Assembly (NCBI RefSeq): GCF_900119695.1
Contig: NZ_LT632547.1
Location: 744,001-808,000, forward strand
Length of the DNA stretch: 64,000 bases
From: Actinomyces urinae
GTDB taxonomy: Bacteria > Actinomycetota > Actinomycetes > Actinomycetales > Actinomycetaceae
Reading direction: 5' to 3'
Shown: one piece after another, positions 23,380 to 36,727 of the stretch
Numbering within the stretch: position 1 is the stretch's first letter
How the letters are laid out: every line of letters starts with the position of its first letter
Program-made: the position numbers and the translations under genes
Notes under the pieces: generated by a model
What the model was told of the DNA's origin: nothing
Seen by the model: only the letters and a program-made list of their open reading frames with translations
The model's database searches: none

Positions 23380-24945
23380 CTACTCCCACTCGATCGTTGC
23401 CGGCGGCTTCGACGTCACGTCAAGCACAACCCGGTTGATTTCGGGGACCTCGCTGGTGATTCGCGTAGAAATGCGGTCCAGCACATCAAATGGCACGCGT
23501 GCCCACTCAGCACTCATAGCGTCCTCAGAAATGATCGGACGCAGAACAATCGGGTGACCGTACGTGCGTTGATCGCCCGTGACACCCACAGACTTGACAT
23601 CAGCAAGCAGAACAACCGGGCACTGCCAAATGACCTCGTCAAGGCCAGCATTCGTCAGTTCCTCGCGCACAATGTAGTCAGCTGCGCGCAGAACATCCAG
23701 ACGCTCCCGAGTCAGCGCGCCAACCACGCGCACACCCAAGCCGGGGCCGGGGAACGGCTGACGCTTCACCATGGAGGCCGGCACCCCGATCTCGAGGCCA
23801 AGCTCGCGAACCTCATCCTTAAAGAGGGCGCGCAACGGCTCAACCAGCTCAAAGTTCAAATCCTCAGGCAGGCCGCCCACGTTGTGGTGCGACTTGATGT
23901 TTGCCGACCCCTCGGCTCCGGACTCAACCACATCGGGGTAGATCGTACCCTGGACGAGGAACTTAACTTCCTCCCCATCGCGATCAGCTTCCGCCACGAA
24001 CTTCTTCTGCGCATCCTCGAACACCCGAATGAACTCGCGGCCAATGATCTTGCGCTTCTGCTCCGGTTCGGTGACGTCCTTCAACGCATTCAAGAAGCGT
24101 TCGGACTCATCAATCGTGACCACGCGGATACCCATCGTGGCGGCGTAGTCGCGCTCAACCTGCTCGCGCTCACCCAGACGCAACAGGCCGTGGTCCACGA
24201 AGAAACAGGTGAGCTGATCGCCAACAGCCTTGTGTACAAGCGCTGCCGCAACCGAAGAATCGACGCCACCAGACAGTGCACAAATTACGCGCGCAGAACC
24301 AACCTGCTCGCGAATCTTCTGAATCTCACTATCGATAATCGAGGCCGCGGACCACTCGCCCTCAATACCGGCAATATCGCGCAAGAAACGCACAATCTGA
24401 TCCTGACCGTGCTCGGTGCGACGAATCTCCGGGAGCCACTCCACGCCGTAAAGGCCGCGAGCTACATCCTCGGCTGCCGCAATCTGCGACTTATCCGTGC
24501 TTGCACTCACGCGAAATCCATCGGGGAGCTCCTCCACGCGGTCAACGTGAGACATCCACACATCCTGGTCGCCATCAGCGCCCAGCAGTTTCGAATCCGA
24601 AACCGTCACAGTTGCGCGGGCTCGACCATTTTCAGGAACATCTCCAGGGGCAACCACACCACCCAGGGCATCCACCATCACGTGGAAGCCCGACGAAATA
24701 GCAAGAACTGGAACCCCAGAATTAAGAATGTCCGCGTCAAACTTAACGTGCGCGGACGACGGACCACCAGAAAGAATAATCGCAGCAGGATTCTTTTCAC
24801 TGATCTGCTGCGCACTATAAGTCTGGGGAACAATCTCGGAGTAAACATGGGCCTCACGGACCCGGCGGGCAATCAGTTGCGCGTTCTGCGCACCCAAATC
24901 GACCACCAGAACCGGGCGATTCTTCATTTCATTTGCGTTAGTCAC
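23380..24945 (-). CDS. guaA: GMP synthase with a catalytically degenerate glutaminase domain
   Basis: GuaA converts XMP to GMP with ATP and an amide nitrogen. The ATP-pyrophosphatase domain is intact (SGGVDSS at 225-231), as is the C-terminal dimerisation domain ([14 protein letters not shown]). The N-terminal class I glutaminase domain (about 8-190) is full length but its triad is broken. The usual GICYG nucleophile motif reads AISSG (Ser84 for Cys), and the usual FHPE reads WLPE (Leu171 for His). WMSHGD reads WMSHVD and the EYG motif reads ENG. The enzyme should therefore use free NH3 or a partner amidase. I start at the GTG (521 residues): no ribosome-binding site exists, and TAGAAT lies 6 nt upstream, suggesting a leaderless mRNA. 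Confidence 0.93.
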
Positions 24946-24951
24946 AGCCAA

Positions 24952-34714: not shown

Positions 34715-36727
34715 ATGTACGACTTTCACTCCCCCATCGCAAACGGGTTTGCCCGTGTGACGGCAGCAAACATCCCCATCAAGGTTGGGGATCCCGCCGC
34801 GAACGCGGCCAGCATCATTGAAGCAGCCAAGCGGGCGAGCGAAGCCGGAGCAAGCGTCGTCGTGTTTCAAGAGCTCACGCTGGTAGGAGTAACGGCAGAC
34901 GATCTGCTGTTCCAAGACACTGTGCACGAGGAATGCGAAGCTGCGATAGAGACCATCAAGCAGGCCTCTGTCGATTGGCCCCTAGTAGCTCTGTTTGGCA
35001 CTCCTCTACGGGTAAGTGGCAAGACTCTGAACGCCGCAATCGCTGTCACCCGCGGCCAAATAGCAGGAATCTGGTTTGATCCCGCCCAAAACGACCCGAT
35101 GCGAAAACGCTGGTTTAATTCCTGCTCTGATGCCTCCCCCGCCTACTCGGTCATATTGGACCAACCGCTATTTGTTGCGGGTGAGATATCTCTGACGGTC
35201 CTGGATATCCCCGGCCTATCTATCGGCGTGCAATTGCACGAAGCAGTCGACTACGAGATACAGGCAAAACGCGGCGTTAGCCTGGTTGTGAGCTTGGGAG
35301 GAGCACCCGCGTTTGCGGGGACAGCGCGCCGTCGTTTGGCCCGGGCGCGTGAGGCCTCACGAACCGCAAAACTCGCGGTTGTGTACGCGGGTGCTGGCCA
35401 AGGCGAGTCCACAACCGATTACGCGTGGGACGGGCAGACTTTCATCGTGGAGGCCGGCGAGGTACTGGCACAAAACGACCGGTTCGGATCCGGTGTACGC
35501 CTCACTTATGCCGATATTGATCTGGCTCGACTGCAGGCAGAGCACAAGCTTTCAAGCCCCGCGCAAGAGGAAATGTTTGCCAGCCAACAGGTGCGGGTGC
35601 AACCGCGCAGCGACTGGACGCTAGAGCGCAGGCTTCCCCGCTTCCCTTATTTGGATACGGATCCGGGGCTTTGGGAATCTGACCTCGAGGACATGTTTGG
35701 CCTGCAGGTCCAGGCTCTGATGCGCAGACTTGAGGCCACCGGAAACCCGCACCCGGTTATCGGCATATCCGGCGGGCTAGATTCGACCCACGCCCTCCTC
35801 GTGTGTGTTGAGGCGATGGAGCGCATGGGCCGGCCACGCACCGACATTTTGACCTTCACCATGCCGGGCTTTGCCACTACCTCGCACACGAAGAACAATG
35901 CGACGAAGCTGTGCGAGGTTCTGGGCACAACGTTTGAGGTGATCGATATTCGCGATACCGCCCGCCAAATGCTTGCCGACATGGGGCACCCGTTTGGACG
36001 CGGCGAAGAAGTGTACGACGTGACGTTTGAGAACGTGCAGGCGGGTCTGCGCACCGATTTCTTGTTCCGCATTGCCAACGGCAGGCGCGGCCTGGTGATC
36101 GGTACGGGCGACTATTCGGAGCTCATGCTCGGATGGTGCACGTTTGGCGTTGGCGACCACATGTCGCATTACAGCGTTAACCCGGGCGTGCCAAAAACGC
36201 TTATGCAGCATCTGATCCGTTGGATTATGGCCTCGAATCGTTTTGGCGAGGACGTAAATGACACGCTGGATTCGATTTTGAACACCGAAATCACACCGGA
36301 GCTGATCCCCACACGTGAAGGCGAAGAGGCCCAGTCTACGCAGGCAATGATCGGCCCTTACGCGTTGCAGGATTTCAACGCCTACTACCTGGTTCACCTG
36401 GGTCTGTCCCCAGAATTCACGGCTTTTCGCGCATTGAATGCTTGGAGCAATGCAGAAGAGGGTGTTTGGCCCGCCGGTTTAGAGGGAGTGGATCGCGCCG
36501 AGTTTAACCTTCAGCAGATCCTCACGTGGGAGCGCGTGTTCCTGCGTCGCTTCTTCACAAACCAGTTCAAGCGCTCCACCTTGGCAAACGGCCCGCGTGT
36601 ACTTGAAGGCGCGAATCTGTCGCCCCGTGGTGGCCTGATGCTCGCATCTGATCTTTCGCCCGCGCCGTGGCTTGCGCGCATAGACAAGTTGGCTGATAGC
36701 CTCGACATCGAATTAGAAAAGAGGTAG
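34715..36727 (+). CDS. nadE: NAD synthetase with a catalytically degenerate glutaminase domain
   Basis: NadE amidates deamido-NAD to NAD with ATP. The synthetase domain is intact: SGGLDS at 352-357, PGFATTSHTKNNATK, and GTGDYSELMLGW. The length (670) and order match the two-domain mycobacterial enzyme. In the N-terminal nitrilase-fold glutaminase domain the Glu is kept (E53 in FQELTL). The catalytic Lys region (PKSYLP in homologues) reads FDPAQN, with Asp122 at the Lys position. The nucleophile motif (EICED in homologues) reads QLHEA, with His175 for Cys. It should depend on free ammonia while keeping the dead domain as a scaffold. The ATG follows GAAGGAAAAAC. A membrane protein gene follows at 2 nt. 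Confidence 0.94.
   Translation: MYDFHSPIANGFARVTAANIPIKVGDPAANAASIIEAAKRASEAGASVVVFQELTLVGVTADDLLFQDTVHEECEAAIETIKQASVDWPLVALFGTPLRVSGKTLNAAIAVTRGQIAGIWFDPAQNDPMRKRWFNSCSDASPAYSVILDQPLFVAGEISLTVLDIPGLSIGVQLHEAVDYEIQAKRGVSLVVSLGGAPAFAGTARRRLARAREASRTAKLAVVYAGAGQGESTTDYAWDGQTFIVEAGEVLAQNDRFGSGVRLTYADIDLARLQAEHKLSSPAQEEMFASQQVRVQPRSDWTLERRLPRFPYLDTDPGLWESDLEDMFGLQVQALMRRLEATGNPHPVIGISGGLDSTHALLVCVEAMERMGRPRTDILTFTMPGFATTSHTKNNATKLCEVLGTTFEVIDIRDTARQMLADMGHPFGRGEEVYDVTFENVQAGLRTDFLFRIANGRRGLVIGTGDYSELMLGWCTFGVGDHMSHYSVNPGVPKTLMQHLIRWIMASNRFGEDVNDTLDSILNTEITPELIPTREGEEAQSTQAMIGPYALQDFNAYYLVHLGLSPEFTAFRALNAWSNAEEGVWPAGLEGVDRAEFNLQQILTWERVFLRRFFTNQFKRSTLANGPRVLEGANLSPRGGLMLASDLSPAPWLARIDKLADSLDIELEKR

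Follow-up and report, generated by a model that had tools for sequence, protein, structure and literature searches.

Among described systems, the locus studied here is best compared with the two-domain NAD synthetase (NadE) of Mycobacterium tuberculosis (PDB 3DLA, 3SYT; models NF002730/PRK02628). As described in PMC6946656, the YRE loop comprises residues Tyr127–Glu132, and the glutamine site is defined by Phe130 together with Phe180. Glu129 forms a bond with Lys644 at constriction 2A of the tunnel, and the last position of ammonia is at Asp497; the octamer core of NadE consists of the glutaminase domains. According to the same report, M. tuberculosis NadE prefers glutamine, and human NadE has no preference for glutamine vs. 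ammonia. These preferences imply that ammonia use needs no new chemistry and may need a better affinity, and the ancestral enzyme may have used ammonia poorly, because M. tuberculosis NadE prefers glutamine. All type-F (fused) NAD synthetases characterized before 2012 are said in PMC3376133 to use glutamine efficiently, besides ammonia.

Two other amidotransferases are relevant as examples of enzymes that work without the catalytic Cys. Human CPS1 carries a Ser in its place, keeps the domain and uses free ammonia (PMC4655335). For Plasmodium GMPS, a double mutant lacking the catalytic Cys was reported to be active with NH4Cl, with a Km for NH4Cl below that of the wild type (PMC9312489).

The nadE gene described below lies in a 64,000-nt stretch of the Actinomyces urinae genome, referred to here as the window. 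Its product resembles M. tuberculosis NadE in full-length homology, domain order, synthetase motifs and the last ammonia site, but lacks the nucleophile, the Lys, the YRE loop, most of the glutamine-site residues and Lys644. With the single-domain (type N) NadE it shares the predicted donor, free ammonia; type N enzymes are described as having no glutaminase domain (PMC3376133), whereas the window NadE keeps one and scores as the fused form.

The active site of the window NadE

The gene nadE (positions 34715..36727, + strand) encodes a two-domain NAD synthetase of 670 aa with an inactivated glutaminase domain, recognized by NF002730, PF00795 and PF02540. The two-domain NAD synthase model NF002730 matched with 725.9 bits (cut-off 473), the Pfam matches were PF00795 with 37.6 bits (residues 14–275) and PF02540 with 81.9 bits, and residues 3–658 could be aligned with the solved M. 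tuberculosis NadE. The genome (1.95 Mb, 99.75% complete) contains one NadE match. The nearest of three named relatives is Gleimia europaea UMB0652, with a NadE identity of 93%. The ORFs directly before nadE we take, by eye from their translations, to be phosphate acetyltransferase and acetate kinase.

In the nitrilase-type glutaminase domain (approximately residues 1–300; 34715..35614, + strand), fold-level residues are kept and the active site is lost. The triad Glu is retained as E53 (34871..34873, + strand), as seen in the codons and in the alignments. The position of the nucleophile Cys176 is occupied by H175 (35237..35239, + strand; CAC), which stands opposite Cys176 in four alignments. 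D122 (35078..35080, + strand; GAT) lies at or beside the position of the catalytic Lys; depending on the alignment, the Lys column of the window protein reads as D122 or as a gap of 2–3 residues, and never as Lys. These results confirm the original prediction that the domain has lost its Lys and Cys while keeping Glu53; its assignment of the Lys position to Asp122 holds in some alignments only. A Lys retained elsewhere was considered as well and rejected, as no alignment places a Lys of the window protein in this column.

The damage extends beyond the triad. Residues 125–130 (QNDPMR; 35087..35104, + strand) represent a degenerate form of the YRE loop (Tyr127–Glu132 in M. tuberculosis numbering), and in the same numbering the window protein carries Y127Q, E129D, F130P, Y58V, S203A and an Asp at Trp/Phe180. 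Unlike most glutamine-site residues, E177 and P204 are retained. The synthetase domain (approximately residues 312–670; 35648..36724, + strand) is conserved. Codon checks showed that its SGGLDS (35768..35785, + strand) and GTGDYSEL (36101..36124, + strand) motifs are intact, as had been claimed, and D481 (36155..36157, + strand), the equivalent of the last ammonia-transfer site Asp497, is present in all 21 NadE proteins that have lost the Cys, this one included. Among the changes in this half, H561 (36395..36397, + strand) replaces Arg576 of helix alpha-17, described as a coupling partner of the YRE loop, and R628 (36596..36598, + strand) replaces Lys644, assigned to tunnel constriction 2A (PMC6946656 for both roles). 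An AlphaFold2 model based on four sequences (window, L031, L032, L033) had a mean pLDDT of 53.2 and is a poor one.

Distribution of the Cys loss

For the comparison of genomes, we call a NadE dead when it has no catalytic Cys and live when it carries the complete Glu-Lys-Cys triad. In the genus, 11 genomes were searched. The Cys is absent in five of them, being replaced by His in the window genome, by Gln in G. europaea (G002) and by Gly in G005, G003 and G006, while the complete Glu-Lys-Cys set was found in all of the other six. The five dead proteins formed one branch with 100% SH-aLRT in a quick tree of the synthetase domain, and a dead-only clade was obtained again in a more careful tree. 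Sequencing error can be ruled out, because the assemblies are separate and the replacement residues differ. Chance is no explanation either, with the Cys absent from every genome of the clade and the full triad found in 128 of the 149 family sequences read. Of the genus members, the window genome and G. europaea alone are without the Lys; as the three remaining clade members (G005, G003, G006) still carry it, the Cys was probably lost before the Lys. A Cys at position 74 of the window NadE (34934–34936) is common to the five dead genus members and is found in none of the six live ones.

The original prediction had proposed a comparison with the NadE of neighboring genera, and this showed that the Cys is also absent from some NadE proteins of other genera of the GTDB family. 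Of 213 genomes of the family 192 gave a match, and we read the NadE of the 149 strong matches, which represent 23 genera; the 43 weak matches (best E 1.3e-16) lie outside this set. Glu-Lys-Cys is present in 128 of the 149 proteins and the Cys is absent in 21, spread over eight of the 23 genera: five of 11 in the window genus (g1), 2/2 in g2, 1/6 in g4, 1/1 in g20, 4/4 in g23, 1/2 in g29, 1/6 in g30 and 6/6 in g34. The replacing residue is Gly in 17 cases, Ala in two, and His and Gln in one each. The four g23 genomes (G129–G132; L056–L059) have the most decayed glutaminase domains, in which Glu is changed to Gln or Arg and both Lys and Cys are gone, and they sit on a long branch.

The careful tree comprised 88 rows: all 21 dead proteins, a subset of 58 from the 128 live proteins, and nine sequences from other families. 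The dead rows fell into seven dead-only clades. Parsimony gave six changes (5–6 over the bootstraps), three of which are forced by well-supported branches; the exact number of losses is uncertain, given the long branches and the unsettled bootstrap. We also read 60 sequences belonging to ten further families in the order, a chosen subset of the matches listed that included many of the weaker long ones. Fifty-eight had Glu-Lys-Cys, one was cut at the N terminus and had Lys and Cys, and one was uninformative at a contig edge, so that no Cys loss was found among the 59 informative sequences of these ten families. In this sample, the loss of the Cys is confined to one GTDB family.

Residues lost and kept in dead NadE proteins

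Conserved positions were defined as those shared by 95% or more of the live proteins (128 in total). The glutaminase half has 65 such positions, of which the window NadE retains 58%, and the synthetase half has 152, of which it retains 86%; live genus members retain 95% and 98%, respectively. Twelve of the 65 glutaminase-half positions are kept in every dead NadE. Among the residues invariant in all 128 live family proteins are E52, K121, C176, Y127, E129, Y131, Y58, E177 and S203. In the 21 dead proteins, C176, the Trp at position 180 and F130 are retained in none, Y127 in one, E129 in two and S203 in three, while D497 and SGGLD are each retained in all 21. Counted by genus, C176, F130, Trp at 180, V181 and L242 are lost by all members of each of the eight dead genera, and E129, S203, Y58 and Y127 are lost in at least seven of the eight (weighted).

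The synthetase-domain position that is lost in most dead lineages is K644 (7.6 of 8, weighted), present in 127 of the 128 live proteins and in two of the 21 dead ones. In independent pairs its loss accompanied that of the Cys in 2.6 of three supported pairs, a number too small for significance. A correlated loss of R576 was rejected since it was not consistent in the independent pairs. Decay has thus hit the handling of glutamine and the coupling of the two sites, and the fold and the ammonia-using half have stayed. The dead proteins offer a natural series in which to ask which residues of a tunnel-coupled enzyme serve coupling only, caught at several stages: Cys gone with Lys kept, both gone, and Glu gone too.

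To describe selection on the two halves, omega was calculated (NG86) for 22 species pairs, some of which share species and some of which have high dS. For the glutaminase domain, the eight dead pairs gave 0.085–0.262; among the 14 live pairs, 12 had a computable value, and these spanned 0.031–0.214. The dead pairs are thus relaxed on average, overlap the live range and lie well below 1. In the dead pair G129/G130 omega was higher in the synthetase half than in the glutaminase half. Between the window genome and G. europaea it was 0.249 (bootstrap 0.157–0.387) for the glutaminase domain and 0.084 (0.033–0.156) for the synthetase domain. The dead glutaminase domain is still under purifying selection. 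This fits a structural role, given that the octamer core is made of glutaminase domains, and retention of the dead domain as that core is plausible.

A second dead glutaminase in GuaA

The other PF02540 match in the window led to guaA (23380..24951, - strand), which lies 10 kb from nadE and encodes a 523-aa GMP synthase whose class-I glutaminase domain is inactivated. The protein matched the GMP synthetase model NF000848 over its full length with 687.5 bits (cut-off 400), and the N-terminal model TIGR00888 gave 166.4 bits, slightly below the cut-off of 172.15. Alignment to solved GMP synthetases placed S86 (24694..24696, - strand) at the catalytic Cys, where GICYG has become AISSG, and L173 (24433..24435, - strand) at the catalytic His, where HPEV has become LPEI. 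Of the class-I Cys-His-Glu triad, only the Glu (E175) is kept. Pfam scans of 20 other long ORFs of the window revealed no further amidotransferases.

We then compared GuaA stretches from 20 further genomes, 19 of which were usable; the stretch of G005 is without guaA. The Cys is replaced by Ser in all four dead-NadE genus genomes that could be read (window, G002, G003 and G006), and the His by Leu in the window genome and G002, by Arg in G003 and by Met in G006. GuaA is intact in all six live-NadE genomes of the genus and in each of the ten dead-NadE genomes read outside it, which represent seven genera, so the losses in NadE and GuaA are not generally linked. The four dead GuaA proteins form one clade (95/95), and the death of GuaA is one event in one clade. 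The 16 intact proteins share 66 GATase positions without variation, and four of these, including the catalytic Cys and His, have been lost by every dead protein; for the rest of the protein the figure is two of 193 such positions. The ATP-pyrophosphatase and dimerization parts are conserved, with 96% of the positions invariant in intact copies being kept. GATase omega was 0.168–0.180 in three dead pairs; among five intact pairs, three had a computable value, and these lay at 0.047–0.114.

NAD supply and alternative explanations

Each of the 11 genus genomes has one strong NAD synthase match (78–87 bits), the others being partial and at most 31 bits; likewise, each of the 16 other dead genomes has one (48–92 bits), with other matches partial and at about 32 bits or less. 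The possibility of a second glutaminase-competent NadE, which the original prediction had named as refuting evidence, was followed through the genus genomes, and none was found. A second NadE in the window genome was rejected, as the other PF02540 matches were GuaA and a 383-aa frame (partial, 19.9 bits, below cut-off). In all six g34 genomes (G203–G208), a weak PF02540 match lying in a frame of 368–369 aa coincides with an in-frame TAA. NadA was not found in 39 of the 42 genomes tested, including all 11 of the genus; the only ones with it are three of the four g23 genomes G129–G132. PnuC was not found in any of the 42. NAPRTase-family matches occur in 36 of the 42, mostly weak and PncB-sized, with a PncB-like one in the window genome and a single weak match (21–33 bits) per genome in the genus. 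NAD is thus most likely made from nicotinate with NadE as the sole last step. NadE is likely to be essential, because there is one strong NAD synthase, PnuC is absent, NadA is mostly absent and a PncB-like match is present.

For the NadE with a dead glutaminase half, several sources of nitrogen other than free ammonium were weighed. Nicotinamide salvage could in principle provide it: PncA releases one NH3 per nicotinamide, so the chemistry would balance, and NadA is missing throughout the genus. A stoichiometric supply of this kind is nonetheless very improbable and largely refuted, since four of the five dead genus genomes and five of the six dead g34 genomes have no match to the isochorismatase family. 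The only such protein of the window genome (L235; G000:C3:1256057-1256623, outside the window) is biuret-hydrolase-like, with 242.6 bits to NF050097 (cut-off 370) vs. 36.9 bits to the nicotinamidase model PRK11609 (cut-off 174). Supply of ammonia in trans by a separate glutaminase, an arrangement known from two-subunit NAD synthetases of types C and R (PMC3376133), is improbable too, although a non-homologous partner could conceivably play this part. Each of the 11 genus genomes, whether dead or live, has exactly two matches to the nitrilase family, which in the window genome are NadE and the apolipoprotein N-acyltransferase Lnt, and a stand-alone nitrilase-type glutaminase was found in none of the 11; moreover, the channel of the dead NadE that would have to receive the ammonia is itself degraded. 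What speaks for such a supply is an extra stand-alone nitrilase-family protein of 286 aa in G126, a dead genome outside the genus (G126:C46:68063-68818, 140 bits), which could be a trans glutaminase or an unrelated amidase. Among the 16 other dead genomes this is the only one with a third match, although the model has limited sensitivity, as it misses those domains that are most decayed. That NadE is simply decaying because NAD comes from elsewhere we consider hardly credible: the window frame is open, the synthetase half is under the strong constraint given above (omega 0.084), PnuC is absent from 42/42 genomes and the NAPRTase matches of the genus are weak. In its favor, the dead genome G180, which is outside the genus, has a strong NAPRTase/NadV-like match of 444 aa (G180:C109:8563-9243, 237.8 bits), perhaps a NadV that bypasses NadE.

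Two further explanations leave the domain a function of its own. It could still be a glutaminase that employs H175, C137 or C74 as a substitute nucleophile, and the C74 column does separate the five dead from the six live genus members. Yet the residue at the nucleophile position varies (H, Q, G, G, G) among the five, C137 occurs in only two of them, C74 is distant from the motif in sequence, and the window NadE has lost the equivalents of Tyr58, Tyr127, Phe130, Trp180 and Ser203; we regard this possibility as remote. Pseudoenzyme domains often acquire regulatory roles, and the persisting purifying selection (omega 0.249) would agree with a sensor of glutamine or nitrogen that tunes the synthetase. 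This is unlikely, as the glutamine contacts and the YRE loop, through which the synthetase is signaled to, rank with the elements lost most frequently. The interpretation in the original prediction is partly upheld. Dependence on ammonia is well supported by the sequences, as residues of the triad, the glutamine site and the YRE loop are gone and neither a second NadE nor a separate nitrilase-type glutaminase was found in the genus, while a retained regulatory role for the domain became less likely with the loss of the loop that couples the sites. The triad argues against the use of glutamine by the window NadE, and free ammonium would remain the candidate source of nitrogen.

Discussion

We consider it very likely that the NadE of the window clade is ammonia-dependent, with its dead glutaminase domain kept for structural reasons, and that, counting GuaA, at least two essential amidotransferases have moved to free ammonia. 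The glutaminase half of NadE would be unable to hydrolyze glutamine after the loss of its nucleophile, of the Lys (in the window lineage) and of residues of the glutamine site and the coupling loop. In the synthetase half, which is intact, free NH3 may then reach the NaAD-adenylate through what is left of the tunnel or from the solvent. Published structures and the purifying selection on the domain suggest that it is kept as the octamer core and as a shaper of the synthetase half. With the loss of the unrelated class-I site of GuaA in the same clade, a second amidotransferase would depend on free ammonia as its presumed donor. For both enzymes the ammonia most likely comes from solution, and GuaA, like NadE, would retain its former glutaminase domain in a structural capacity.

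The closest parallel is vertebrate CPS1, in which an ancestral glutaminase domain is likewise kept with its catalytic Cys replaced (H175 in NadE and S86 in GuaA); the change from Cys to Ser in GuaA is the same swap as in human CPS1. CPS1 differs in being another enzyme, the NadE domain has the nitrilase-type fold, and here the change is bacterial and concerns two enzymes in one clade. The NadE and GuaA of the clade are best read as having exchanged glutamine for free ammonia, as CPS1 has. GuaA matches the GMP synthetases (NF000848) over the full length and differs from them in that, in this clade, it no longer has the class-I Cys and His. Titles and abstract openings among the literature matches listed, in which few subscription journals are represented, describe no natural two-domain NadE or GuaA without the Cys, and within the same scope no work on NAD in Gleimia was found. 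The loss of the GuaA Cys and His alongside a dead NadE is a new observation.

The findings bear on how such enzymes are classified. NAD synthetases have been sorted by architecture, the fused form being taken as glutamine-using, and within a single bacterial family this rule is broken no fewer than three times, perhaps seven. The contrast drawn by the original prediction, with bacteria that encode the short NadE, thus proves too narrow, as the same decay is found in eight genera of the family and here in GuaA likewise. Automatically assigned names, such as the 'glutamine-hydrolyzing' in the name of the GuaA model, are misleading in these cases.

For the organisms themselves, the joint loss in NadE and GuaA raises the question of whether the clade has enough free ammonium for the synthesis of both NAD and GMP. 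It is possible, and we put it forward tentatively, that the G. europaea clade is abandoning glutamine as an amidotransferase donor altogether, with NadE and GuaA dead already, and CTP synthase, CarA, PurQ/PurL, GlmS and others that may follow. If this is true, the cell would run its biosynthesis on a large pool of free ammonium.
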